NCBI GenBank assembly: GCA_013696965.1
Contig: JACCXN010000093.1
Span: 1 to 64,000 of the forward strand
DNA length: 64,000 bases
Direction of reading: 5' to 3'
Source: Bacteroidota bacterium
GTDB taxonomy: Bacteria > Bacteroidota > Bacteroidia > JACCXN01
Of this stretch, positions 1,766-15,913 are shown one piece after another. Within the stretch, counting starts at the first letter, position 1. Every line of letters begins with the position of its first letter. The translations under genes were made by a program, and so were the position numbers. A model generated the notes under the pieces. That model searched no databases. It worked only from the letters and a program-made list of their open reading frames with translations, and was not told where the DNA came from.

Positions 1766-3526
1766 ATGATCCTTAAAAGAAATTTAAATACGGTTTTATT
1801 TGCAGTTTTTGCCAGTGTTTTAATTTTATCCTGCAACTCCTCCGACCAAAAAACGGAATATGTGAATCCCGAAGTTACTGTTTGGGAACTCTCTGATGCA
1901 GATATGCTTAATCCTTTTAATTATTCGGATGCTGGCGCTGGATATATTATGACAAATATTTTTCAGAAATTACTTTCCATTGACTTTAATACCTTAGAAC
2001 TTGTTCCCATACTTGCCACAGAACGACCAGAAATTATAAAAACTCCCGAAGGTGGAATGTTAATTACATACACTATTCGTCCTGATGCTAAATGGGATAA
2101 TGGAACACCTATTACTGCAAAGGATATTGAGTTTTCCTTAAAGGTGATGAAAAATCCAAAAGTAAACAACCAACGCTTAAGGCCTTATTATGAATTTATT
2201 CAGGATGTACAGTTTTATGAGCAAGATCCCCTTAAACTGACTTTTATTTGTAAAGATGTTTATATTCTTGCAGAAGCGGCCAGTGGTGATTTTTCTATTT
2301 TACCTGAAAATATTTTTGACCCTAAAGGTTTAATGAAGGGATTTTCCATTCGTGAACTTTCTGAAAATGCTGAAAAAATTTCGGATGATCCTAAAATAGT
2401 AGAGTTTGCAAATGATTTTAACTCAGAAAAATACCAGAGAGAAAAAGAATTTGTTATTGGAAGCGGTGCTTATACCCTGGAGGAGTGGCTAACAGGACAA
2501 AGAATTGTTTTGAAGAAAAAGGAAAACTGGTGGGGAAATAAATTAGCAGAAAATAACAAGTATTTTGAGGTTAATTCCCCCAAAATTATTTACCAGACAA
2601 TCAATGATCAAACTACTGGAATTGTTGCCCTTAAAGCGGGAAATATAGATTTGGCACGAACAATAAAGGCAAAGGATTTCGTTGAATTACCAAAATCGGA
2701 AAAATTTACTGCTAATTATGTTTCTCATACTCCAGGGTTTTTAGAGTACAATTACATAGGAATTAATACCAAGCTTGAAAACAAAAAATTATCAGATAAA
2801 AAAGTCCGCCAGGCACTGGCTCATCTTTTCGATGTTCCTAAAATTATTGAAATCATTCAATATGGCCTGGCGCAAAGAATCATTGGTCCTATCCATCCCT
2901 CAGATAAAAAGGCATACAACAAGGATTTAGCTCATTACCAATACAGTGTTGAAACCGCAAAAAAACTGTTATCAGAAGCAGGTTGGAAAGATTCAAATGG
3001 AAATGGAACTGTTGATAAAGTAATTGATGGTGAATTAGTGGAGCTTGAAATAACTTTCACCTATAATTCGGGTAATGATGAAAGAAAAGGTGTTGCACTT
3101 ATGTTCCAGGAAGAAGCAAGGAAAGCAGGGATAAAAGTAAATGTAATTGCACAGGAATGGTCTATTTATCTTGATAATCTTAAAAGTCATAAATTCGATA
3201 TGTATTTTGGAGCTTGGGTTTCAACTCCCGTTCCTGCCGATCATAAACAAATTTACCATACCGAATCCTATCATGGTGGATCCAATTATACTGGTTTTGG
3301 AAATGATGAGTCCGATGCTTTAATTGATGCTATACGTATTGAATTGGATGAAGATAAAAGGGCATTGTTAAATAAGGAATTCCAAAAAATACTACATGAT
3401 CAGGTTTCCTATATTTTCTTATATGCCAGAAATGAAAAAATTGCCATTAATAAACGTTTTCATAACGCTCAAACATCAGTTATGAGACCTGGATATTGGG
3501 AATCAGGATTTTCAGTTACAAAATAA
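1766..3526 (+). CDS. Oligopeptide ABC transporter substrate-binding lipoprotein
   Basis: 586-residue SBP_bac_5 family protein. It has a lipoprotein signal (lipobox LILSC, acylated Cys 23), so it should sit on the periplasmic face of a membrane and capture peptides or similar solutes. Typical family features are an early dipeptide/oligopeptide-binding segment (PDAKWDNGTPITAKDIEFSLK), the VRQALAHLFD segment in the middle, and a C-terminal FDMYFGAW segment. Length fits the family. Two permease genes follow after 6 and 2 bases, so the three form one operon. No ATPase gene is present. The exact substrate is unknown. Confidence 0.93.
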   Translation: MILKRNLNTVLFAVFASVLILSCNSSDQKTEYVNPEVTVWELSDADMLNPFNYSDAGAGYIMTNIFQKLLSIDFNTLELVPILATERPEIIKTPEGGMLITYTIRPDAKWDNGTPITAKDIEFSLKVMKNPKVNNQRLRPYYEFIQDVQFYEQDPLKLTFICKDVYILAEAASGDFSILPENIFDPKGLMKGFSIRELSENAEKISDDPKIVEFANDFNSEKYQREKEFVIGSGAYTLEEWLTGQRIVLKKKENWWGNKLAENNKYFEVNSPKIIYQTINDQTTGIVALKAGNIDLARTIKAKDFVELPKSEKFTANYVSHTPGFLEYNYIGINTKLENKKLSDKKVRQALAHLFDVPKIIEIIQYGLAQRIIGPIHPSDKKAYNKDLAHYQYSVETAKKLLSEAGWKDSNGNGTVDKVIDGELVELEITFTYNSGNDERKGVALMFQEEARKAGIKVNVIAQEWSIYLDNLKSHKFDMYFGAWVSTPVPADHKQIYHTESYHGGSNYTGFGNDESDALIDAIRIELDEDKRALLNKEFQKILHDQVSYIFLYARNEKIAINKRFHNAQTSVMRPGYWESGFSVTK

Positions 3527-3532
3527 TATACA

Positions 3533-5026
3533 ATGCTAAAATATATCTTAAAGCGGGTATTTATTTTTATACCTACTTTAATCATAATATCACTTCTTAC
3601 TTTTGTAATAAGTACAAATGCCCCGGGTGACCCTGTTGATACCATGCTTAATAAAAGTGCCGGGGGAGATGGACAAGCAGCAGAAAAGATGTCTACTGAA
3701 AAGGCATACAATGACCTTAGACATCAACTGGGACTTGATTTGCCTGTTTTTTATTTTAGTGTTACAAATTCCACTCGTACGGATACTTTATATAGGTTAT
3801 CAAATTCTCTGCATCAGGAAACAATGGAAAGAATTTCATTTAATTTCGGAGTCTGGAAACATGTTGGAGATTATTACAACAATATAAAAAAGTTTGAATA
3901 TGCTTTATTAGCAATTGATAAAGACAATGAGAATTCGGCTGATTTAAGGAAAGCAAAAGATTATGTAAATTCCCTTTATTCAATATTTGATGAAACAAAA
4001 ATAAAAAATGTTTTTTCTGGTTTGGCTTTTTTGTTTGAATCAAATCACTCCTTTGCTAAGGCAAAAGCCAATTTTAACGCCACAGAAAATGCATGGCATA
4101 ATGTAATTCACAATCAATCCAAAATGAACAAATACATACCTGCAATTCATTGGTACGGATTCAACAATCAATACCACAGGTGGATATTTGGTGACAAGCC
4201 CTGGCTTTCGTCCCTTCCCTGGGCAAATGATAGGGATATACAATTCAACAGTAAAGGCTTTTTAAGGGGCGACTTTGGAATTTCATACCAGGATAAACGG
4301 CCTGTTTCATCCGTTTTATGGGATGCTATGCAATGGACTTTTATGCTCAGCATGCTTTCTGTTTTTATTGCCTATTTGGTTGCTATCCCCTTAGGAGTTA
4401 AATCTGCAGTTTCAAAGGGGTCAAAAACTGAAAAATCAATTACTACTGTTTTGTTTGTTCTTTATTCATTACCAAATTTTTGGATAGCAACAATGCTTAT
4501 TATTTTCTTTGCCGGAGGTGATTATTTTGACTGGTTCCCGGCATTTGGACTTGGATCTTTACCCTCTTCTGCCCCTTTCATGGACAGGTTTTTTGAAACT
4601 GCTTACCATTTCATTCTTCCGCTTATTTGTCTTACCTACGCCTCCTTTGCTTTTATATCCCGTCAAATGCGAGGAGGAATGCTTAATGTGCTAGGCCAGG
4701 ATTATATTAGAACTGCAAGGGCAAAGGGATTAAATGAAAATACAGTAATTTGGAAACACGCTTTTCGCAATTCCTTAATTCCTATTATCACTTTGTTTGC
4801 AAGCATTTTCCCTGCTGCAATTTCAGGATCTTTCGTAATTGAATATATTTTTTCAATACCAGGCATGGGAAAGATAAGTCTTGATGCGCTTATTGCCCGA
4901 AATTATCCAATTGTTTTTACTGTAATGCTTTTTACAGCAATTCTTACCCTTGTTGGAAATTTAGTTGCAGATATTTTGTATGCAGTTGTGGATCCCCGGA
5001 TTTCCTTCACAAAAAAAGCCAATTAA
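3533..5026 (+). CDS. OppB/DppB-type ABC transporter permease with large insert
   Basis: 497-residue inner-membrane permease. A first membrane helix (about residues 8-27) is followed by a long hydrophilic region to about residue 245, then by the usual BPD_transp_1 membrane domain. The cytoplasmic coupling motif GQDYIRTARAKGL is near residue 388 and the protein ends in the family's DPRISF tail. OppB proteins are normally a little over 300 residues; the excess lies in the loop after helix 1, which should be periplasmic and could contact the binding protein. It pairs with the permease gene that begins 2 bases later. Confidence 0.92.
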   Translation: MLKYILKRVFIFIPTLIIISLLTFVISTNAPGDPVDTMLNKSAGGDGQAAEKMSTEKAYNDLRHQLGLDLPVFYFSVTNSTRTDTLYRLSNSLHQETMERISFNFGVWKHVGDYYNNIKKFEYALLAIDKDNENSADLRKAKDYVNSLYSIFDETKIKNVFSGLAFLFESNHSFAKAKANFNATENAWHNVIHNQSKMNKYIPAIHWYGFNNQYHRWIFGDKPWLSSLPWANDRDIQFNSKGFLRGDFGISYQDKRPVSSVLWDAMQWTFMLSMLSVFIAYLVAIPLGVKSAVSKGSKTEKSITTVLFVLYSLPNFWIATMLIIFFAGGDYFDWFPAFGLGSLPSSAPFMDRFFETAYHFILPLICLTYASFAFISRQMRGGMLNVLGQDYIRTARAKGLNENTVIWKHAFRNSLIPIITLFASIFPAAISGSFVIEYIFSIPGMGKISLDALIARNYPIVFTVMLFTAILTLVGNLVADILYAVVDPRISFTKKAN

Positions 5027-5028
5027 TT

Positions 5029-6348
5029 ATGCAACAAGAAACTGATATTTTATCTGCTCCGTTGCCTCTTACCAAAGTTGCAAAAAAAGGATTTTGGCCA
5101 GGTGTTTTCAAGCAATTCAAAAAAAACAAATTAGCTGTTTTTTCATTGTGGCTTATTCTTTTGCTTGCAAGCATTGCAGCATTGGCTGATTTTATTGCCA
5201 ATGAAAAACCGCTTATTGCCAAATACAATGGACAGGTTTATTTCCCTGTTTTTAAATCCTATGTAGTGGAAAGCGGATTTGCCAATTGGCCAGTGGAAAT
5301 GCAAAACATAGAATGGAATAGTCTTCAATATGACTGGGTTGTTTTTCCACCGATTCCTTATTTGCCCAAAAACATTGATTTTGCAAATGCACAATCAATT
5401 GGTCCTTTTGATGATCAAAGAGTTAAATCCATACATTGGAGGCATTGGTTAGGAACAGATGAACTAGGACGGGATGTTATGGCCGGTATGATACATGGAA
5501 CCAGGATTGCTTTGCTGGTTGGTTTAATTTCAATGAGCATTGCTTCAATAATAGGTATTTTGTTAGGCTCACTTGCAGGTTATTTTGGAGATGATAAATT
5601 GAAAATATCCAGAGCAAGAATAGTTTTAAATCCCCTTTTTTTCCTTGTTGCTATTTTTTATGCCTTTGGTTCACGTTCTTATATTTTAGCAGATGCTATA
5701 AATAATTCCTTTGCGAATTTTTTATTTGAATTTGGTATAAGTTTGATTATACTGATAGCTTTTATGGGGGTTGCAAATATTCTAAGTCATTTCTTAAAAG
5801 CCATTCCCTTTTTTGCCGTTAAAATAAATGTTGCTGTTGATATTATTATTTCTCGCCTTATTGAGGTAATGGTTTCCATTCCAACACTTTTTCTTATCAT
5901 TTCAATTATAGCAATTGCCAAACCCTCAATATTTATTGTTATGGCAATAATCGGATTTACTTCATGGACTGGTATTGCCCGGTTTATTCGTGCCGAACTT
6001 TTAAGGGTAAGAAGGCTTGAATATATTGAAGCTGCTCAAGCATTGGGTTTCGGTGAAATGCGAACAATTTTCAAACATGCCATTCCAAATGCGCTTTCTC
6101 CTGTATTAATTGCCATTGCATTTGGAATAGCAACCGCAATTCTTATTGAATCTACATTGTCTTTTCTTGGAATTGGACTTCCTGCAGAAACTATGACTTG
6201 GGGTTCGTTGCTTTCTTCAGCAAGACAATCAACATCTGCTTGGTGGCTTGCAATTTTCCCTGGCCTTGCCATATTTATCACTGTTACAATTTACAATCTC
6301 GTAGGAGAAGGCCTTACAGATGCTCTTGATCCGAGGCAGAAAAGATAA
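5029..6348 (+). CDS. OppC/DppC-type ABC transporter permease
   Basis: 439-residue inner-membrane permease. Family features in order: N-terminal FKKNKLAVFSLW with helix 1, the conserved HWLGTDELGRDVM motif near residue 140, several membrane helices, the EAA-type coupling loop EYIEAAQALGFGEMRTIFKHA near residue 330, and the C-terminal GLTDALDPRQ. It is longer than typical OppC because of extra segments after helix 1 and after about residue 185. It is the last gene of the operon; OppD/OppF ATPases must be encoded elsewhere. Confidence 0.92.
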   Translation: MQQETDILSAPLPLTKVAKKGFWPGVFKQFKKNKLAVFSLWLILLLASIAALADFIANEKPLIAKYNGQVYFPVFKSYVVESGFANWPVEMQNIEWNSLQYDWVVFPPIPYLPKNIDFANAQSIGPFDDQRVKSIHWRHWLGTDELGRDVMAGMIHGTRIALLVGLISMSIASIIGILLGSLAGYFGDDKLKISRARIVLNPLFFLVAIFYAFGSRSYILADAINNSFANFLFEFGISLIILIAFMGVANILSHFLKAIPFFAVKINVAVDIIISRLIEVMVSIPTLFLIISIIAIAKPSIFIVMAIIGFTSWTGIARFIRAELLRVRRLEYIEAAQALGFGEMRTIFKHAIPNALSPVLIAIAFGIATAILIESTLSFLGIGLPAETMTWGSLLSSARQSTSAWWLAIFPGLAIFITVTIYNLVGEGLTDALDPRQKR

Positions 6349-6619: not shown

Positions 6620-7705
6620 TTAAAACCGGTATATTTTGTATTCTTTTGTTTTTTTTGCACCCATTTCCATAACTATTTTGTTCATACGCAAATTTTCCGT
6701 TGCTACCCAACTGATTTCTCCTCCCAAATATCCTTCCTGTTCAACCCTACTGGCCATTTCAGCATAAAGTATACTGCCAAGCCCTAGGTGCTGATACTTT
6801 TGCTTAACAGCTATAACCATAACTTTTACCCATTTAATCTTTTGCTTTGTTTTAAAAAACTTCCAAAGGCCTGTTAGGGTGAACTTACCATACGGCAAAT
6901 GTTGTATGGCTTCGTTCAAATTAGGCACAGCAAGTATAAAAGCTACCGGTTCGCCATTGAACGAAAGGGTGAAAAGCAGCCTTCTGTTGAGTATTGATTT
7001 TAATGACCTTGCCATGTAAACAAATTCTTTTTCAGTAAAAGGATCATAGCCCCAGTGGTTTATAAATGCATCATTATATATCCTGCAAAGTTTTTTAGCT
7101 TCATTGTCATAATTTGAATAATCTATCTCATCTATCTTTATTGGATACCTTTTTTTTAAAAGCCTGCAAACTCGTGTAATTTTCTCATCCCTGATTCCAC
7201 ATGGCTGCTCAAAAGCTGAAAAGGACATCTCCTCCTTTGCTCCCAATTGTTGCAAAAGCTTTCCATAATAAGGGGGGTTATAATTCATCATAAAAAATGC
7301 CTGTTGCTCAAAACCTGAATCAAGAACCCCTAACTCGTAATTAATGCTTGGATTTAAAGGCCCCGTGAATGAATAAATATTCTTTTCTTTAAAATGTCTT
7401 TTTACAGCGTTTATCAAAGAGAGGGCAGCATTAAAATCATTAATACAGTCAAAAAAACCAAAATGGCCTTCCTGCTTGGTTTTAAAACAAATAGCGGCTA
7501 TCCTTCCAACCGGCTGATTTCCGGAATATGCAACAAAAAGTACATAATCAGCCTTTTCCCAGAATGGATTTTTCTTCCTGTTAAAGGTCTGGCGCAAAAG
7601 CATCTTTATCGGGGCGATGTATTGGGGATGATCTCTGTGGATAATATCGCCCAAGTGTATAAAATCCGAGAATTGCCTTTTTGTGATTACCTGTGATATT
7701 TTCAT
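6620..7705 (-). CDS. GNAT-like N-acetyltransferase family protein
   Basis: 361-residue cytoplasmic protein. The C-terminal third looks like a GNAT fold: a strand ending VMVIAVKQKYQHLGLGSILYAEMA resembles the acetyl-CoA pyrophosphate loop (Q-x-x-G-x-G), followed by ISWVATENLRMNKIVMEMGAKK, where such enzymes end. The N-terminal half carries a second degenerate GNAT-like unit. No signal peptide or membrane helix is visible. It is transcribed divergently from the radical SAM/P450 operon with 138 bases between them, so a shared role is possible but not shown. The substrate is unknown. Confidence 0.7.
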   Translation of the reverse strand: MKISQVITKRQFSDFIHLGDIIHRDHPQYIAPIKMLLRQTFNRKKNPFWEKADYVLFVAYSGNQPVGRIAAICFKTKQEGHFGFFDCINDFNAALSLINAVKRHFKEKNIYSFTGPLNPSINYELGVLDSGFEQQAFFMMNYNPPYYGKLLQQLGAKEEMSFSAFEQPCGIRDEKITRVCRLLKKRYPIKIDEIDYSNYDNEAKKLCRIYNDAFINHWGYDPFTEKEFVYMARSLKSILNRRLLFTLSFNGEPVAFILAVPNLNEAIQHLPYGKFTLTGLWKFFKTKQKIKWVKVMVIAVKQKYQHLGLGSILYAEMASRVEQEGYLGGEISWVATENLRMNKIVMEMGAKKTKEYKIYRF

Positions 7706-7843
7706 TACTATATTTTTTGGTATACCGTAAATTTATCTGTCTTTACGAAAGTTAAATTTTAGGGGATAAAGGTTCAAATTAAAAGTATCAATATCAATTT
7801 AATGCTTTAAAATTTCGTTTATTTGTTACTGAAAGATTAATTT

Positions 7844-9178
7844 ATGAAGAAGCTGAGAATTTTACTAATTAGCCCTACCGGACTGGATAAAGAAGGAAAG
7901 CCGATAGTGCAGAAAAAGACATATCTACCAGGGCTAACCATGGCTCAGCTTTCGGCCCACACACCTAAAGACCAGTTTGAGGTACACACAGTTTGTGAAA
8001 CATCCCAGCCCATTCCATGGGACGAGCAATGGGATATTGTGGGGCTTACAGGAATGGGAGGGGCTGGCGTTGTGCGCGGCTATCAAATCGGTGATTATTT
8101 TAAGGCAAAAGGCGCTACTGTGGTAATGGGAGGTATTGCTATTTCTTTATTTGAGGATAGCTGGACACGCCCACATTGCAATGTAATTATTAATGGGGAA
8201 GCGGAAGAGACCTGGCCGCGTTTTTTGCAAGATTACCTAAGGGGAGAGGTTAAGGATACTTATGATATGGAAAAAGTACCTGATGTTAATTGTTTTCCGG
8301 TACCCGATTATCAAGCCTTTGATGCTAAATACTATGGCTTTTGGCGGCCGGTACAAGCTACCCGCGGCTGCCCTTTTCCATGTACATTTTGTTCCATTTC
8401 ACAGTTTTTTAAGAGAAGTTACAGGAAACGCCCTGTAGAACAGGTTATACGTGATGTTAGGGCAGCCAAAGCCTCAGGAAGCAAGTACATTGCATTTATT
8501 GACGACAACATAGGTGTGGACTTTAATTATTGCAAGGAATTATGGACGGCACTTATCCCTGAAAAAATCATCTGGATTAGCCAATGCAGCTTGCAAATTG
8601 CAAAAGATGATGAAATGCTGAAGCTTGCTTATAAATCGGGCTGCCGTATTTTGTCTTTCGGTATCGAAACTATAAATGAAGCCAGCCTAGTTCATATTGA
8701 CAAGGAATGGAATGAGCCCAAACAATATGATAAAGCTTTTGCCAACATAAGGGCACAGGGAATTGAAATTTCCACAGAAATGATACTTGGCCTTGACGGG
8801 GATGATGAAACTGTTTTTGAAAAAACCTTTGATTTTTTAATGCGTAACAATATTGCTTTGCCAAGGATGTACATTTTAACCCCTGTGCCCGGAACGCCAA
8901 TGTATCGCCAACTTGAGGATGAAGGCAGGATTTTCGATTATGACATTCAAAAGTATGTAGGGGGTTCTGCTGTATTTCACCCCAAGGGCATGTCAGCAGA
9001 AACACTGCAGCAGGGCTATTGGAAGCTATATGAGAAGCTTTACTCCAGGAAAAATATTTATAAACGGCTAAAGGCAAACCCAGCTGGGCTTGGGCCATTT
9101 TTGCGCCTATTTGTACTTGGAACTAATGTGGTTTACAGAAACCACATTAATCGAGGCATAACACCCGGAATTGTATAA
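7844..9178 (+). CDS. B12-binding-domain radical SAM enzyme, first of operon
   Basis: 444 residues. The N-terminal part (about 1-135) is a cobalamin-binding-like Rossmann domain (LLISPTG; IVGLTGMGGAGV; VVMGGIAISL; INGEAEETWP). The radical SAM core follows with the CxxxCxxC 4Fe-4S motif at Cys 176, 180 and 183 (GCPFPCTFC), then the SAM-contact strand YIAFIDDNIG and GIETINEASL. Enzymes of this B12-radical SAM class methylate unactivated carbons or do other radical chemistry; the classic His of the DxHxxG cobalamin motif is not obvious, so cobalamin may not bind. First gene of a five-gene operon. Substrate unknown; a lipid or acyl chain is suggested by the neighbours. Confidence 0.9.
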   Translation: MKKLRILLISPTGLDKEGKPIVQKKTYLPGLTMAQLSAHTPKDQFEVHTVCETSQPIPWDEQWDIVGLTGMGGAGVVRGYQIGDYFKAKGATVVMGGIAISLFEDSWTRPHCNVIINGEAEETWPRFLQDYLRGEVKDTYDMEKVPDVNCFPVPDYQAFDAKYYGFWRPVQATRGCPFPCTFCSISQFFKRSYRKRPVEQVIRDVRAAKASGSKYIAFIDDNIGVDFNYCKELWTALIPEKIIWISQCSLQIAKDDEMLKLAYKSGCRILSFGIETINEASLVHIDKEWNEPKQYDKAFANIRAQGIEISTEMILGLDGDDETVFEKTFDFLMRNNIALPRMYILTPVPGTPMYRQLEDEGRIFDYDIQKYVGGSAVFHPKGMSAETLQQGYWKLYEKLYSRKNIYKRLKANPAGLGPFLRLFVLGTNVVYRNHINRGITPGIV

Positions 9179-9243
9179 TGGAAGTAATTCCAAATACCAG
9201 GATTTTAATTTCGCTCTTAGAAGGCGGTTACTTTATAAAATGA
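9178..9243 (+). CDS. Possible 21-codon mini-ORF between radical SAM and P450
   Basis: The stop of the radical SAM gene overlaps an ATG (TAATG at 9176-9180). From this ATG a frame of 21 codons runs to TGA at 9241-9243, whose bases overlap the next ATG. The predicted peptide begins MEVIPNTRIL and ends EGGYFIK. Candidate roles are a coupling leader or a very short peptide substrate; it may also be chance. No protein-level evidence is available. Confidence 0.25.
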   Translation: MEVIPNTRILISLLEGGYFIK

Positions 9244-9263
9244 GCCAAAACACCAGCACATGA
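9240..9263 (+). CDS. Possible 7-codon mini-ORF coupled to the P450 start
   Basis: ATG at 9240 overlaps the stop of the 21-codon frame (ATGA), and its own TGA at 9261-9263 overlaps the P450 ATG (ATGA at 9260-9263). The peptide would be MSQNTST. The likeliest role is passing ribosomes on to the P450 start; chance is also possible. Confidence 0.2.
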   Translation: MSQNTST

Positions 9264-10609
9264 AGTCGTATATTACTAAAAATCCTTCATTTATTGAGTC
9301 CCTGAAGTTTGTCCATAACATTTCTGTTTCGGTTGAGGAAAACATGGCCGAATATGGCGATCTATTCAAACTTAAACTTCCCTTTCATTCTATCTATGCG
9401 GTAGCCGGGCCACAAGCCTTACATGATATCCTAATAAAGAATGATGCAAATTTTATTAAGAGCAAGATTTATTGGGCTCAGCTTCGTGCCGTAGTGGGAG
9501 ATGCCCTGGGAACTTATGAAGGAGAGGAATTTGTTTGGATGAAAAAGCTCCAGATGAAAGCCTATACCAAGGCTCAGGCTGAAATTCACCTCCATGAGGT
9601 GATACGTTCAAATGAATCCCACTTTGCAGAATGGGAAACACATTCAAAGCCCCTGAATATCACTCATGCTTTTTCTGAGTTAAATGTGGCTATTTTGCTG
9701 AAAGTTTTATTTGGGAAAGAGCATGATGGCTTGTGTGATACCATTGCACATTATATCGCTGATGGGGAAGAAACTATTTCATGGCGATCTGCTTTTCCCT
9801 GGAGGCCATATACTGCCTGGCTTAATGGCAGAAACCAGCGGTATAAAAAATCGGTGAAGTTTTTTGGTAAAATAACAGATGATATTATCGCCAAAAATCT
9901 TGATCGCCCTCCATTAAATTCCTTAATTGGGCTACTATTGAGTGAATCCAGCTTTTTAAAAGAAAACAGCAACATAGACAAGGAAATTATCCGAAATGAG
10001 CTAATTATACACCTTGGAGCTGGAACAGAAACTGCTGCAGTTGGGATGGGCTGGGCATTTTACCTGCTTCATAAACACCCTGGGGTCAAGAAAAAAATCT
10101 TCCAGGAAATTGATGAAGTGGTAGGCTGCAACCAGATTAAACCGGAACATGCTTTTCAACTCGAGTACACAGCAATGGTTTTAAAAGAAGCATTGAGGCT
10201 GTATCCGCCAAGTCATGGAATAGTACGTGATGCCATTGGAGAAGTCCGGATTGGAGAGATGTACGCAAAACCGGGAGATACATTTTTTATCAGCACTTAT
10301 GCACTGCATCGAAACCCGAAATACTGGCAATCCCCAAATGAATTTATCCCTGAAAGATTTAAAACAGAACCTGAGGATTATACCTATATCCCTTTTGGTG
10401 CCGGAAAACATTCCTGTATTGGCCGTTACCTGGCTCAGCCTATGATGATACTGGCAGTGGCTCAGTTTCTGCAAAAGTTTGACTTTGAAATGAATGTTAC
10501 AGAACCTGTGCTTCCTTTATCAATGGCTACACTTAAGCCTAACCAGCCTCTGCTTATTAATGTAACAGAGCGAAGGCCGGATTCAAAAACTAAAACCCAA
10601 ATGACATGA
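9260..10609 (+). CDS. Cytochrome P450
   Basis: 449-residue soluble P450 with all hallmark motifs: I-helix GAGTET (oxygen activation), K-helix KEALR (ExxR), a PERF segment, and haem-binding loop FGAGKHSCIG with axial Cys 386. It needs external redox partners, which are not encoded nearby. Overall style resembles the fatty-acid- and lipid-hydroxylating bacterial P450s. The start overlaps the TGA of a mini-ORF, and its own stop overlaps the start of the second radical SAM gene (ATGA), so it belongs to the operon. Predicted to hydroxylate or desaturate an intermediate of the cluster. Confidence 0.95.
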   Translation: MKSYITKNPSFIESLKFVHNISVSVEENMAEYGDLFKLKLPFHSIYAVAGPQALHDILIKNDANFIKSKIYWAQLRAVVGDALGTYEGEEFVWMKKLQMKAYTKAQAEIHLHEVIRSNESHFAEWETHSKPLNITHAFSELNVAILLKVLFGKEHDGLCDTIAHYIADGEETISWRSAFPWRPYTAWLNGRNQRYKKSVKFFGKITDDIIAKNLDRPPLNSLIGLLLSESSFLKENSNIDKEIIRNELIIHLGAGTETAAVGMGWAFYLLHKHPGVKKKIFQEIDEVVGCNQIKPEHAFQLEYTAMVLKEALRLYPPSHGIVRDAIGEVRIGEMYAKPGDTFFISTYALHRNPKYWQSPNEFIPERFKTEPEDYTYIPFGAGKHSCIGRYLAQPMMILAVAQFLQKFDFEMNVTEPVLPLSMATLKPNQPLLINVTERRPDSKTKTQMT

Positions 10610-12105
10610 AAATTTTACTGGTAAGGCCACCTGTCCCTCAACATACCATCGGACTAAAGCACATTATGATATGTGAGCCCTTGGAACTGGAATATATCGG
10701 AGCAAACCTAAAGGGGCATGAAGTCATGATTTTTGACAACTTGGTTGAAAAAGGCTTTAAAAAGAGACTTGAAAAGTTTTCGCCTGATGTGGTAGTGAGT
10801 AGCTGCTATAAAACAGGCACCAATGAAGTCATAAAGTTATTCAGGGAAGTGAAGCGGTTTAATCCTAATATTATAACCATTGTTGGCGGAATCCATGCCA
10901 CATTAATTCCTGAAGATTTTGCCGATGTTGCTGTGGATGTAATTGGGATTGGCGATGGCACCTTTCTTTTGCCCGAAATTATTCAAAAAATCCAAAACAA
11001 TGAGCCTATTATCGGGCTCCCGGGTGTGGCCATACCTATTGCTGAAAACCAATTGGAATTTTCACCTCAACGGGCTTACATGCCAAAAGCAGATACCCTG
11101 CCGCTACCCGACCGTTCCCTGGTAAAACACCTGAAACACAAGTACTATTATTTGATGCATTCCCCTGTGGCAACCATGAAAACCACATGGGGCTGCTGGT
11201 ATAGATGCAATTTTTGCTTTACCTGGAAAATAACTGGCGGAACACCTTACAGCCGGTCTCCCGAATCCATCGTTGAAGAATTAAAAACAATTGAAGCAAA
11301 GGAGGTATACATTGTGGATGATATTTTCTTAATCAACATAAGCCGCTTGCGGAAACTGGCCGATTTATTAAAAGCCGAAGGTATCCACAAAAACTATCTC
11401 TGCTATGCAAGGGCCGATTTTATTGCAGAAAACGAGGAGATTATTAAGGAATGGGCAGAGCTTGGGCTGAAAGCCGTTTTCATAGGGCTGGAAGCCGCTA
11501 CAGACGAAGAATTAAACAGCATGAACAAGCAATGTCCGGTGGATTACAATAAAAAGGCTATCGAAGTGCTTCGCAGGCACAAAATTGATACCTACGGTTC
11601 TCTTATACCCGCTGCACATTATGAAAAAGCGGACTGGGCACGCCTTTGGGATTTTATCGAAGAAACAAAACTTTACTATGTGAATATTTCACCAGCTACA
11701 CCTTTGCCCGGCGCTGAAGATTATGCCAGCCTGAAAGAAAACCTCACGGTCCCCGAAGATGCACATGGCCTGTTTGACCTTTCACACCAACTCTGCCCAA
11801 CAAAAATGCCTTTAAAAGATTATTACCGTGAGCTACTTAAACTTTATGCAAAAACAATTCTTAATCTTAGGAGAGCTAACCACAATACTTTCCGCACTCT
11901 TCCATCCATTTGGAGCATACAATATTGGAGGATCATTGCAGGAGCACTTAAAATAGGCAGACAATTTGCAACAGCTCACCTGGATCATACGCCTAAAGAA
12001 ATTGCCATTGCTCAGTATAAAGGAGAACCTGTAATAGGGCTAAGCTATGGCTCAAAATTCCGCCATCCATCCTTCAGCCAGGTTAAAGAAACGCAAGCTG
12101 TCTAA
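10606..12105 (+). CDS. B12-binding-domain radical SAM enzyme, second of operon
   Basis: 499 residues. The N-terminal cobalamin-binding-like domain starts LLVRPPVPQ and includes VVVSSCYKTGTNE and ITIVGGIHATLIPEDF. The radical SAM CxxxCxxC motif lies at Cys 197, 201 and 204 (GCWYRCNFC), followed by the EVYIVDDIFLIN strand and AVFIGLEAATDEELN. The C-terminal ~100 residues carry a family-specific extension. It differs clearly from the first radical SAM protein of the operon and is probably a different step, not a duplicate. The start overlaps the P450 stop; 2 bases separate it from the acyltransferase gene. Confidence 0.9.
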   Translation: MKILLVRPPVPQHTIGLKHIMICEPLELEYIGANLKGHEVMIFDNLVEKGFKKRLEKFSPDVVVSSCYKTGTNEVIKLFREVKRFNPNIITIVGGIHATLIPEDFADVAVDVIGIGDGTFLLPEIIQKIQNNEPIIGLPGVAIPIAENQLEFSPQRAYMPKADTLPLPDRSLVKHLKHKYYYLMHSPVATMKTTWGCWYRCNFCFTWKITGGTPYSRSPESIVEELKTIEAKEVYIVDDIFLINISRLRKLADLLKAEGIHKNYLCYARADFIAENEEIIKEWAELGLKAVFIGLEAATDEELNSMNKQCPVDYNKKAIEVLRRHKIDTYGSLIPAAHYEKADWARLWDFIEETKLYYVNISPATPLPGAEDYASLKENLTVPEDAHGLFDLSHQLCPTKMPLKDYYRELLKLYAKTILNLRRANHNTFRTLPSIWSIQYWRIIAGALKIGRQFATAHLDHTPKEIAIAQYKGEPVIGLSYGSKFRHPSFSQVKETQAV

Positions 12106-12107
12106 AT

Positions 12108-13280
12108 ATGCATTTAAAAGTCTTCCGCCATATCAGCGAAATACCTGAAAACACATGGAACAGCATCCTATGCGAGGATGATATTTTTCACCATTACAGG
12201 TTTCTCAAGGCTATCCAGGAAGCAGCTGTTGAAAATGCGGATATGCGTTTCCTGACTTTTTATAAAAACGAACAACTCCTAGGATCTGCGGTATGCAGTG
12301 CATTTACTATAGATTTAAGTCTTTTTGCGGGAGATAATGTTTTTGTAAAAATCTTAAAAAAATCCTTGTCTGGAATTTTCAAATGCAGGATATGCTTTTG
12401 CGGAACACCCCTATCTGCCGGACAAAACAATATCAGGTGGAAAGATGAAAATGACAAAGGACCCATATTGAATGAAACCATAAAATTTATGGATAAATGG
12501 TGTGCAGAAGAAAAAATCCCGGTCAGTATTTTTAAAGAGTTTTCTGAACCGTCAGTTTCTTTATCTCTTCTTAATAGTGGATATATTAAGGCACCGAGCT
12601 TACCGGGAACCACCCTTTTTCTTCCCTTTAATACTCACAGAGAATACATGGATTCACTGCGGGCAAATTACAGGAGGCAAATCCTTAGTGGCTGGAAAAA
12701 AATCGAAAATAAACATCCCACTTTTGTTGAAAATTATTTCACATCTGCTAAAAATGAAAATGCTCCTGTTTTTACCATTCTGAATGCTGAAGATATTGAC
12801 GCCCGACATTTTTACGCACTATATACCCTTGTTTTAAACAGGGCAGAAACCCGTCTTGAAACATTAAATCTGGCATTTTTCAGTAATTTTTTCTCTCAGT
12901 ATAAGGAGCAATTAAAAGCATTATCTATGGTTTTTCGTGGAAAAATTATCGGAATGTTTATTTTCATAAAGTTAAGGGAACAGCTCGTTTTTCTTTGGAC
13001 TGGGAAAGAAGATGAAAAAGATGATTATGAAAGTTACAACAATTTACTTAGTGCTTTGGTGATTTTTGCCATTAAGGAAGGGTATAAGAAAATAGATTTG
13101 GGACAAACCTCCTACTATCCAAAAATGCGCCTTGGAGGGCAGACTTTTGATTTGGTTTTTTATTTTAAAGCCAAAAAACCATTGGTTCACAAAATAATAA
13201 CCCTGTTAAAGCCTGTGATTTTCCCTGAATATACACTGCCTGAAATGAAAGTATTTGCCGCTAAAAATAAAGTTTTATGA
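12108..13280 (+). CDS. FemAB/BioF2-like acyltransferase (GNAT fold)
   Basis: 390-residue cytoplasmic protein that looks like the FemAB/BioF2-like GNAT group: an N-terminal W-x-x-I...IFHHYRFL segment, a centre with RANYRRQILSGWKKIE, and a C-terminal half with the acyl-CoA-type fold (LSMVFRGKIIGMFIFI, then NLLSALVIFAIKEGYKKIDLGQTSYYPKMRLG). This family transfers aminoacyl or acyl groups to amines. Within the operon it would suit N-acylation of an amine made by the next gene product (inference). Its stop overlaps the start of the aminotransferase fusion (ATGA). Confidence 0.75.
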   Translation: MHLKVFRHISEIPENTWNSILCEDDIFHHYRFLKAIQEAAVENADMRFLTFYKNEQLLGSAVCSAFTIDLSLFAGDNVFVKILKKSLSGIFKCRICFCGTPLSAGQNNIRWKDENDKGPILNETIKFMDKWCAEEKIPVSIFKEFSEPSVSLSLLNSGYIKAPSLPGTTLFLPFNTHREYMDSLRANYRRQILSGWKKIENKHPTFVENYFTSAKNENAPVFTILNAEDIDARHFYALYTLVLNRAETRLETLNLAFFSNFFSQYKEQLKALSMVFRGKIIGMFIFIKLREQLVFLWTGKEDEKDDYESYNNLLSALVIFAIKEGYKKIDLGQTSYYPKMRLGGQTFDLVFYFKAKKPLVHKIITLLKPVIFPEYTLPEMKVFAAKNKVL

Positions 13281-15913
13281 CTAAGAAAGATAAAATGCTG
13301 GAATTGTTCGGGCTTAATGTGAATTACACAAGCGGCACCGCTAACCACCTATTTTACAAGAATGATGAAAATATAGAAGTTTGTGTATTGGATGTAACCG
13401 GTTCTTATGGGATAAATTTGCTGGGGCACAATAATCCTGTTGTGAAAAAAATCGCAGAAAACATCTCCACTTTCCCTCCTAACTTCATTCAAGGTAGCAA
13501 AAGCCCCGAAAAAGAAAAGCTTTTTGAAAAACTAATAAGCCGGATTGAAGATCATGCCGGCAAAAAGAACTGGCGCTGTGAACTGGCAAATACGGGTACG
13601 GAGATTATTGAACTTGCTTTGAAAATATGCCTTAAAAAATGGGAAAAACGAAAGTTAGAATGGCATCAGGAACAAACCCGCACCATAAATTATTTGTATA
13701 ACGGAGATAAAGGAATCAAAAAAGAAATACAAGCTTCCTATGCCTTTTTAAAGGATGGACCTGTAATAATACATCTGAAAGGTAGCTTTCACGGAAAAAC
13801 TTTAGGAGCCCTTTCTGTTATGGGCAATCCGCAATATAAAGCTGAATTCCCAATGGCTATAAATGGCGTGGAGATATTGGCTACGGAAGAAATTTTAGAA
13901 GATATCATAGCAGTTTATGTAAAAACATATACCTATTTCAATTCAAAAACCCAGCGGATGCAACAAAAGCAATGTTGTCCGGTATGTGCTGTGATCATTG
14001 AACCGATACAGGGGGAAGGTGGTGTGGTAAAAGTACCGGAACATTTTTTAAGCGCACTGTCCCGCATTCAGAAAAAGTGGAGTATACCAGTAATATCCGA
14101 TGAAATACAATGCGGATTATACCGCACCGGCCCATTTTCTGCACTCCCTGGAAAAATACTTACTGCCGATATTTATTGCTTTGGCAAGGCACTCGGGGCA
14201 GGGCTGGCTAAAATTTCTGCACTTTGTTACCAAGCTGCTACTTTCGATGAAAACATATACTCCTATCACAGTTCCAGCTTTAGCGAAGATTTTCTTGGAT
14301 GCTATGCTGCCAATGAATTTCTGGATTGTATTGAAAAAAGCAATAAGGATTATTTTCCTTTAGTTGAACAGCTGCAGAATTTTGCTTCAGCGTACCCTGA
14401 ATTTGTCAAAGAAGTCCGTGGCGAAGGTTTGATGGCAGCCATTGAGCTAAGGGAAGAAGCTTTAAACAATTCTTTTATCACTAAATTTTTTAAGGACCTG
14501 CATAAATTAGGTTACTGGATTTCATCCATCCTTTTAAACAGGGAACAAATAAGGATGTATCCAACGCTCACTGCTCCAATGGCTTTCCGTATTCAGCCCT
14601 CAGTTCAGTTCAACAATGCTGATTTTCTGCATTTGACAAAAGGACTGGCTAATTTTTTTGAGGCCGTAAAAAAAGGCAACTTACAGTATTTATTCGGCCA
14701 CTTGATTCCCCTGTCAAGCCAACCAATACTTAAACCATTGCCTGCTCAGGTACAAACAAATTATTTTCCTTCAGATGCGGCTGTTTTTATTTGCCATCCT
14801 ATTGATCTTGGGCATCTTTCTCATATAGTTGATTTGGTTGAAGGATATGGGGATGAAAATCTTGAAGAGGTTCTTGATGAAGTTCGCGAGGAGCAGTCTT
14901 TCACCATTTATCATACGGATAGCTTGGAAAATGCTATTGGGGAGAAAATGAATGTTGTATTCTTAGGCATTCCACTTACCAGCACATCGTTTTTTAAAGC
15001 CCTTCGTTCAGGCAAGAGGCTTGAATGGATAAAAAAAATACAGGATGCCATAGATTGGGCCAATGAAAAGGGTGCAAGAAGCATAGGCTTAGGCCAATAC
15101 ACCAGCATCATAACAGGCAATGGAATGTATGTAAATTCATCCTCAGCCACACTCACCACGGGGAATGCTTACACAGCAAGCCTTGCCATTCAGGCGATAC
15201 GCTTGGCCATCCAGGAAAAGAAAGTAAAAAATCCGAACATTTGTATAATCGGAGCATCTGGAAACATTGCTTCGGTAATTGCAGAAACCCTGATAAAGGA
15301 TAGTGCGAAAATGACGCTGGTTTACCGGCAAGATCCAGCAAATTCACAAGCAATACAGGAAAACATACGGGCTTTTATTGAAAACAGTTCCAAAGGAAAT
15401 AACTTTCCTTCCCAATTCATAGGGTTTCAGAATATAAGCTCTTCAGATTCAAGTTTTAATGAATTACAAAAAGCAGCTGCTCCTTTTTTAAGCTTTACCC
15501 ATGATATAGAAACTGCTATTCATGCTGATGTGATTGTACTGGGAACAAACCAGCCAGGAGCAGTTTTATATTTAAAACATGTCAAGAAAGGCGCCATTGT
15601 GCTGGATATATCGGTACCACCTAATGCATCTGATGATCTTGTAAGCCGGAGTGACATAACTTATATTAAAGGCGGTATTGCTGCATTACCAGGAACAGGT
15701 AGCCAGGAACAAGCCTTGGAGTCTGTTATCTTGCCTTTTGGGCCAGGCGAATGTTTTGCCTGTATGGCAGAAACATTTGGGCTTGGGTTTGCCCAAATAA
15801 AGGGAAAGCGTTTTACCGGTGATTTAACAACTAAATCTGTTATGGAAATTACCCGGATTATTGAGCAACAAGGATTTTCTTTAGGAAGAAAAAAAACAGA
15901 AAGAAGCCTTTAA
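13277..15913 (+). CDS. Class III aminotransferase fused to acyl-ACP-reductase-like domain
   Basis: 878 residues in two parts. Residues 1 to about 475 are a class III PLP aminotransferase: ANTGTEIIELALK, FHGKTLGALS, EPIQGEGG, SDEIQCG with Asp 275, and FGKALGAGL with the PLP Lys 304. It has extra segments at about 120-160 and 212-237, the latter with a CCPVC cluster. Residues from about 500 to the end resemble cyanobacterial acyl-ACP reductase: a GLGQYTSIITGNG motif, TTGNAYTASLA, the nucleotide-binding IIGASGNIASVIAETL, DISVPPN, and FACMAETFGL with Cys 829 at the place of the catalytic cysteine. Known AAR turns acyl-ACP into fatty aldehyde; the fused transaminase could convert this to a primary amine (inference). 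Last gene of the operon. Confidence 0.82.
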   Translation: MTKKDKMLELFGLNVNYTSGTANHLFYKNDENIEVCVLDVTGSYGINLLGHNNPVVKKIAENISTFPPNFIQGSKSPEKEKLFEKLISRIEDHAGKKNWRCELANTGTEIIELALKICLKKWEKRKLEWHQEQTRTINYLYNGDKGIKKEIQASYAFLKDGPVIIHLKGSFHGKTLGALSVMGNPQYKAEFPMAINGVEILATEEILEDIIAVYVKTYTYFNSKTQRMQQKQCCPVCAVIIEPIQGEGGVVKVPEHFLSALSRIQKKWSIPVISDEIQCGLYRTGPFSALPGKILTADIYCFGKALGAGLAKISALCYQAATFDENIYSYHSSSFSEDFLGCYAANEFLDCIEKSNKDYFPLVEQLQNFASAYPEFVKEVRGEGLMAAIELREEALNNSFITKFFKDLHKLGYWISSILLNREQIRMYPTLTAPMAFRIQPSVQFNNADFLHLTKGLANFFEAVKKGNLQYLFGHLIPLSSQPILKPLPAQVQTNYFPSDAAVFICHPIDLGHLSHIVDLVEGYGDENLEEVLDEVREEQSFTIYHTDSLENAIGEKMNVVFLGIPLTSTSFFKALRSGKRLEWIKKIQDAIDWANEKGARSIGLGQYTSIITGNGMYVNSSSATLTTGNAYTASLAIQAIRLAIQEKKVKNPNICIIGASGNIASVIAETLIKDSAKMTLVYRQDPANSQAIQENIRAFIENSSKGNNFPSQFIGFQNISSSDSSFNELQKAAAPFLSFTHDIETAIHADVIVLGTNQPGAVLYLKHVKKGAIVLDISVPPNASDDLVSRSDITYIKGGIAALPGTGSQEQALESVILPFGPGECFACMAETFGLGFAQIKGKRFTGDLTTKSVMEITRIIEQQGFSLGRKKTERSL

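Follow-up and report, generated by a model that had tools for sequence, protein, structure and literature searches.

The window analysed here, a 64,000-nucleotide stretch of contig JACCXN010000093.1 from a Bacteroidota bacterium (assembly GCA_013696965.1), contains a conserved cluster of six genes at positions 6620-15913, which probably directs the synthesis of a ceramide-like lipid independently of serine palmitoyltransferase (SPT). In more general terms, we lean towards a tailored N-acyl long-chain-amine lipid as its product. The genes of the cluster are:

6620..7705, minus strand: GNAT, 361 aa, a paralogue in the ceramide synthase (CerS) family of bacteria and proposed N-acyltransferase for the long-chain amine (CerS clade and neighbourhood)
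7844..9178, plus strand: rSAM1, a radical SAM protein with a DUF4070 C-terminus and putative cobalamin dependence (PF04055, PF13282)
9260..10609, plus strand: cytochrome P450, proposed chain hydroxylase (PF00067 and motifs)
10606..12105, plus strand: rSAM2, a B12-binding radical SAM protein and proposed lipid-chain C-methylase (PF02310 and PF04055, TIGR04367)
12108..13280, plus strand: FemAB-like protein, 390 aa, proposed aminoacyl-tRNA-dependent aminoacyl transferase (weak FemAB_like match, AlphaFold model)
13277..15913, plus strand: transaminase-thioester reductase (TA-TR) fusion, 878 aa, of the TamH/KecF kind, proposed long-chain-amine maker (PF00202, C-terminal-domain profile)

The five consecutive plus-strand open reading frames at 7844-15913 had been described in the original prediction, and all five are real, but the unit is larger and includes the GNAT gene on the opposite strand. 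Three of the four tight joins (0-4 bases) reported there were confirmed, namely P450/rSAM2 (4-bp overlap), rSAM2/FemAB-like (2-bp gap) and FemAB-like/fusion (4-bp overlap), whereas rSAM1 and the P450 gene are separated by 81 bp (9179-9259). The family calls (radical SAM, P450, FemAB-like, aminotransferase/reductase fusion) agree with Pfam or profile matches and motifs, the FemAB_like match being below its cut-off; the P450, in particular, scores 224.6 bits with PF00067 and has the heme motif FGAGKHSCIG and the I-helix motif AGTET. The original observation is thus confirmed in part. Scans for promoters and terminators gave background level only, and literature searches for this gene combination returned no match. 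None of the cluster genes could be recognised as encoding an exporter or head-group enzyme, a point against the ceramide-like reading.

Relatives were recovered by a profile of the fusion C-terminal domain (genome contigs) and by rSAM2. A Cryomorphaceae MAG and a Saprospiraceae MAG have the gene set of the window in identical order, at loci L008 and L013; the distant Bacteroidota genome G233 has a variant, L092, in which a gene is exchanged. Identities to L008, L013 and L092 are 84, 73 and 54% for rSAM1, 81, 70 and 57% for rSAM2, and 48, 40 and 24% for the FemAB-like protein, respectively; the P450 is 69% identical in L008, and L013 has two copies (42 and 50%). The GNAT gene is divergent from rSAM1 in the window, L013 and L008 (cut there by the contig end), and it also adjoins the cluster in L092. 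The cluster is otherwise rare: searches for rSAM1 located it in just one of the 395 genomes from the class and in 1 of 245 genomes of a second background set. Set against this background, the conserved gene order marks the cluster as a real unit rather than a chance arrangement. A search for the fusion at 1e-60 in 395 genomes of the phylum revealed no carrier besides the window's own genome. Co-occurrence of the genes elsewhere, the absence of which was named in the original prediction as grounds for refutation, is observed in L008, L013 and the variant L092. The L008 copy additionally contains a fatty-acid desaturase gene, in keeping with a lipid product, and a DUF3419 gene; the latter is absent from the window's genome, and a betaine-type lipid was rejected as the product.

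By its sequence, the TA-TR fusion has the transaminase-thioester reductase architecture known from TamH and KecF, and neither catalytic residue is missing. The N-terminal part matches the class III transaminase family PF00202 (189.9 bits), and its PLP-binding Lys304 is invariant in the alignment. The profile of the C-terminal domain matches the structures of PigE and AAR, whereas a PDB search with the single sequence of this domain found no match; Cys829 shares an alignment column with Cys294 of SeAAR. PtTamH (tambjamine), KecF (koreenceine) and PigE (prodigiosin) likewise combine a class III transaminase and an AAR-type thioester reductase in one chain, TamH and KecF in the same domain order as the window protein, which retains the catalytic Lys and Cys. 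Fatty amines are formed by PtTamH in vitro (PMC9594044), and the predicted activity of the window fusion is conversion of acyl-ACP to a long-chain amine. However, the fusion is only ~24-28% identical to the compared relatives outside its own clade, and its partners are the radical SAM proteins, the P450, the FemX-like protein and the CerS-like GNAT, in place of PKS or pyrrole genes. Its closest relatives are encoded in Bdellovibrionota loci together with UbiA, CarS-like, MacB-type and LolA-like genes; the GNATs at these loci are outside the CerS clade, so the support that they lend is weak. In Bdellovibrionota, Verrucomicrobiota, Planctomycetota and Methylomirabilota, fusions of the same kind recur next to genes for UbiA, CarS-like, DUF3419 or CerS-like proteins. 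In L092 the place of the fusion is occupied by an alpha-oxoamine synthase, which scores under every subfamily cut-off; this replacement suggests that the long-chain-amine step is swappable.

The phylogenetic tree places the GNAT in a clade of 12 rows with CerS proteins (support 98/98), in which the CerS rows were identified through synteny with Caulobacter CC_1154 or through an adjoining SPT gene. A GNAT of this clade is present in every copy of the cluster, and in the Saprospiraceae genome it is a second, dedicated CerS-family copy. Since the CerS family is known to acylate long-chain bases, we propose the GNAT as the N-acyltransferase for the long-chain amine; its own structure model is of low confidence (pTM 0.58), and for this reason the fold matches were set aside. 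The combination of a long-chain amine and a CerS-clade GNAT resembles the Spt-bCerS-CerR ceramide pathway, and the G233 copy is closer still, as its amine enzyme, like Spt, is an alpha-oxoamine synthase. The window cluster differs in that the base would come from the transaminase-reductase fusion, in the lack of a CerR-like gene, and in the addition of two radical SAM proteins, a P450 and a FemX-like enzyme. Neither the window cluster nor its counterparts L008 and L013 were found to contain an SPT gene.

From these assignments we infer the following order of steps. The TA-TR fusion would reduce acyl-ACP to a fatty aldehyde and transaminate it to a long-chain amine, while in G233 the alpha-oxoamine synthase would yield a long-chain amino-ketone instead. 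The CerS-family GNAT would then attach a second acyl chain to the amine, giving a two-chain amide. Unactivated chain carbons would be functionalised by rSAM2, probably together with rSAM1, with C-methylation as the simplest outcome, and hydroxylation would fall to the P450; the exact radical SAM chemistry proposed here has an even chance of being right. Finally, the FemX-like enzyme may add an amino acid from aminoacyl-tRNA as the polar head, a step that we propose tentatively. The interpretation given in the original prediction is therefore supported in part: a long-chain amine or N-acyl amine lipid that is further tailored, its chain drawn from fatty-acid synthesis, is in agreement with the TamH/KecF-type fusion, the alpha-oxoamine synthase swap and the CerS-family GNAT, whereas amine acylation, ascribed there to the FemAB-like protein, is better assigned to the GNAT, which it had omitted. 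A partial counterpart is the Acetoanaerobium noterae locus L097, where genes for a GNAT, a FemAB-like protein, rSAM2 (37%) and rSAM1 (40%) lie side by side. It differs by two more radical SAM genes and a methyltransferase gene, and no P450, fusion or alpha-oxoamine synthase was recognised nearby; the lack of any recognised amine-forming enzyme near this core counts against the ceramide-like reading.

The FemAB_like Pfam match of the FemAB-like protein (23.1 bits) is below the 27-bit cut-off, and the best PDB fold matches of its AlphaFold model (pLDDT 86) are the aminoacyl-tRNA-dependent enzymes FemX and Sbb17/Sba18, although the top match, FemX, has a TM-score of only ~0.56 at ~10% identity. 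The predicted fold of the protein thus resembles that of FemX, Sbb17 and alanyl-PG synthase, and the protein looks more like an aminoacyl-tRNA-dependent transferase, with aminoacyl-tRNA as the putative donor. That it is instead an acyl-CoA- or acyl-ACP-dependent N-acyltransferase, the GNAT having some other or regulatory activity, would fit the GNAT-fold N-myristoyltransferases among the fold matches and the transaminases recurrently encoded next to FemAB-like relatives, but we consider it improbable given the best fold matches and a GNAT from a family that acylates long-chain bases. A broader alternative, in our view rather unlikely, is a diffusible, antibiotic-like or alkaloid amine, with the GNAT and the FemX-like protein decorating a small molecule rather than a membrane lipid. 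Tailoring by P450 and radical SAM enzymes is common in natural products, and the distribution of the cluster is sparse and patchy. Moreover, all characterised fusions of the TamH/KecF kind serve koreenceine-, tambjamine- or prodigiosin-like products (PMC9594044, PMC6498172). Yet the cluster has no ketosynthase, pyrrole-condensing gene or, as originally noted, PKS or NRPS module; the window fusion stands apart from the Pseudomonas/Xenorhabdus/Streptomyces group that includes the KecF-type clusters; and all copies encode the CerS-clade GNAT. A koreenceine- or tambjamine-type cluster as such was rejected, no ketosynthase or pyrrole-pathway genes being found in the cluster or its near neighbours.

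The two radical SAM proteins contain the CxxxCxxC motifs CPFPCTFC (rSAM1, residue 176) and CWYRCNFC (rSAM2, residue 197). The description of both as B12-type holds for rSAM2, which has both PF02310 and PF04055; rSAM1 has no B12-binding Pfam match and is alignable with rSAM2 from residue 91 onward, so that its cobalamin dependence is only presumptive. Like the hopanoid C-3 methylase HpnR, rSAM2 combines B12-binding and radical SAM domains and aligns with it over most of its length (residues 1-434), but it reaches only 230.8 bits with TIGR04367 against a cut-off of 650. Tailoring of a hopanoid or other triterpenoid by rSAM2 and the P450 is very improbable, because no squalene-hopene cyclase was found in the four cluster genomes, two of which have one short weak match each (19.7 bits in the window's genome). 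A more serious alternative, though still less probable than methylation, is that the pair joins, cyclises or desaturates chains in the manner of BchE, HpnJ or AprD4, in which case the lipid would be ring-bearing or membrane-spanning. The best score of rSAM1 is with BchE (99.5 bits), which is described as a non-methylating enzyme (PMC13142503), and AprD4 is among the PDB relatives of both proteins. In favour of methylation, rSAM2 is by far closest to HpnR and has the methylase TokK among its structural relatives, and rSAM1 also matches the methylase CysS.

In its fullest form, the ceramide-like reading would define a new class of ceramide analogues made without SPT: a fatty amine from a TA-AAR enzyme, N-acylation by a CerS paralogue, branching or cyclisation by a cobalamin radical SAM pair, P450 hydroxylation and an amino-acid cap derived from aminoacyl-tRNA, with a base enzyme exchangeable for an alpha-oxoamine synthase. 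We put this forward with some doubt. If it is true, the logic of ceramide synthesis, a long-chain amine N-acylated by a CerS-family GNAT, would be modular, with a fatty amine as a possible start, and cobalamin radical SAM chemistry would act on the chains of aminolipids. The cluster would also provide a marker set for nitrogen lipids so far unidentified in environmental lipidomes, and the recurrence of this kind of fusion across the four other phyla may be a sign that amine-based membrane lipids form a broader family than has been recognised.

Gene calls bore out the predicted run of five plus-strand genes at 7844-15913, in a genome of 3.86 Mb (106 contigs) whose relatives place it in the Bacteroidota, and located a sixth gene beside it:

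6620-7705, minus strand, GNAT-family protein (361 aa), divergent and sharing the upstream region of the five-gene run
7844-9178, plus strand, radical SAM protein (rSAM1)
9260-10609, plus strand, P450
10606-12105, plus strand, radical SAM protein (rSAM2)
12108-13280, plus strand, FemAB-like protein
13277-15913, plus strand, fusion of a class III transaminase and an acyl-ACP-reductase-type thioester reductase

Three of the four joins originally described as tight are so (4-bp overlap, 2-bp gap, 4-bp overlap); an 81-bp gap separates the rSAM1 and P450 genes. Family and motif checks supported the P450, the class III transaminase and both radical SAM proteins; of the two proposed B12-type enzymes, a Pfam B12-binding domain was detected in rSAM2 only. 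A profile of the C-terminal part of the fusion matches PigE and cyanobacterial acyl-ACP reductases. Just upstream of the GNAT gene (1766-6348) lie genes that, judged by sequence, encode a peptide-type ABC transporter (substrate-binding protein and two permeases), and the related contigs stop there.

Scanning species genomes with a reductase-domain profile retrieved the complete gene set, in identical order and with the GNAT gene divergent upstream, from contigs of a Cryomorphaceae MAG (L008, the closest) and an uncultured Saprospiraceae (L013). A search with rSAM2 revealed a variant in G233, a distant member of the Bacteroidota with a GC-rich genome, where rSAM1, rSAM2, FemAB-like, P450 and GNAT genes are clustered and an alpha-oxoamine synthase is present but the fusion is absent. 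The five genes co-occur in L008 and L013, and the original proposal withstands the co-occurrence check set for it. The two radical SAM proteins are the most conserved members (identity to the window in L008, L013 and G233, respectively: 84%, 73% and 54% for rSAM1; 81%, 70% and 57% for rSAM2), compared with 48%, 40% and 24% for the FemAB-like protein, 69% and 50% for the P450 in L008 and L013 (L013 has two P450s; G233 also has a P450), 56% and 42% for the fusion in the same two, and 28% for the GNAT in G233. L008 additionally encodes a fatty-acid desaturase and a DUF3419 protein. rSAM1 is sparsely distributed (one of 395 genomes of the window's class and one of 245 of G233's class), and in a phylum sample apparently including G233 the fusion was seen solely in the window's genome. 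Taken together, this distribution, the GC content of the cluster (39.6% versus 34.0% in the remainder of the window) and the G233 copy fit horizontal spread.

The fusion was classed as the TamH/KecF type. It shares its domain order with PtTamH, a member of a cascade yielding a fatty amine in vitro (PMC9594044), and its architecture with KecF of koreenceine biosynthesis (PMC6498172). The PLP lysine, K304, is invariant in the alignment, and Cys829 aligns with the catalytic cysteine of cyanobacterial acyl-ACP reductases. A phylogeny of 68 fusions groups the window, L008 and L013 proteins in one clade, which joins Bdellovibrionota sequences and is separate from the Pseudomonas/Xenorhabdus/Streptomyces group. 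The fusion would supply the long-chain amine of the cluster, with the alpha-oxoamine synthase standing in its place in G233.

Many Bdellovibrionota fusion loci contain genes for a distant ceramide synthase (CerS)-like GNAT, a PPDK/PEP-utilizer protein, UbiA, a CarS-like protein, MacB-type permeases and a LolA-like protein, with a P450 in some, a content suggestive of membrane-lipid synthesis and export. In Bacteriovoracaceae and relatives (L009-L017, about 8-20 kb), this gene set looks like a novel lipid synthesis and export cluster. DUF3419 (BtaA-like) genes lie near such fusions in Bacteroidota, Verrucomicrobiota, Methylomirabilota and Planctomycetota (L008:304-1383, L032:13817-14992, L047, L051, L064).

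The GNAT is related over its full length to proteins annotated as 'dATP pyrophosphohydrolase' or YghO, and is best classed, by its sequence, as a CerS-family paralogue: in the tree the cluster GNATs fall within the CerS clade (support 98/98). Roseomonas relatives are flanked by lptF/lptG-type genes and a nucleotidyltransferase gene, matching the Caulobacter order LptF2/LptG2 - CerS (CC_1154) - CC_1153 (PMC11324152). In Sphingomonas and Pseudomonas the locus of the relative also contains ACP, LptF/LptG and an alpha-oxoamine-synthase-like gene, and an Aureispira relative adjoins an alpha-oxoamine synthase. In the Saprospiraceae genome a separate contig carries serine palmitoyltransferase-like, CerS-like and epimerase/reductase genes consecutively, so that the cluster GNAT there is an additional, dedicated copy. 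Since bacterial CerS acylates a long-chain base in the cytoplasm (PMC11087976), the simplest role for a GNAT of this clade would be N-acylation of the long-chain amine made by the cluster. On an E. coli plasmid (L108:888-4122), yghO, which encodes a CerS-clade protein, lies beside fatty acyl-AMP ligase and epimerase genes in an arrangement resembling that of L109, a sphingolipid-type locus of Pseudomonas, which makes YghO a possible homologue of ceramide synthase.

For the radical SAM pair C-methylation is the default prediction, and ring or bond formation may occur instead. rSAM2 is closest to the hopanoid C-3 methylase HpnR, but it scores far under the HpnR cut-off and was not so classed; as squalene-hopene cyclase was also not found in the four genomes searched, a hopanoid substrate is unlikely. 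The best fold matches of the FemAB-like structure model (pLDDT 86) are FemX and Sbb17/Sba18, with alanyl- and lysyl-phosphatidylglycerol synthases lower, which favours, with moderate confidence, an aminoacyl-tRNA donor. In Nostoc, Streptomyces, Rhizobium and Phyllobacterium, relatives of this protein are repeatedly encoded close to class III transaminases. Plasmids of Rhizobium (L103:4860-12857) and Phyllobacterium (L104:2845-10832) share class III transaminase, arginase-family, EamA, desaturase, hydrolase, FemAB-like and cyclopropane-fatty-acid-synthase genes, and a Nostoc sp. C052 plasmid (L098:8671-21032) combines SDRs, a nitric oxide synthase oxygenase, a desaturase, a class III transaminase, a FemAB-like GNAT and a glycosyltransferase.

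In the anaerobic Firmicute Acetoanaerobium noterae, GNAT, FemAB-like, rSAM2 and rSAM1 genes form a single run without the P450 or the fusion, and these four may represent an older core. This operon (L097:10990-19042), which encodes the GNAT, the FemAB-like protein, four radical SAM proteins and a methyltransferase, is probably an anaerobic relative of the window pathway. A Citrobacter portucalensis plasmid (L102:6435-17287) carries a lipid-like cluster in which five rSAM1-like genes are accompanied by a GH3-type gene and by genes for an N-acetyltransferase, a PAP2 phosphatase and a fatty-acid desaturase.

The originally proposed product, a tailored N-acyl long-chain amine, is supported by the chemistry of the fusion, by the alpha-oxoamine synthase that takes its place in G233 and by a GNAT of the CerS clade; the product, the sequence of steps and the radical SAM chemistry are predictions. 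A literature search outside subscription-only journals found no paper describing this gene combination, and the pathway, taken whole, is a variation on known types that belongs to no single one of them.
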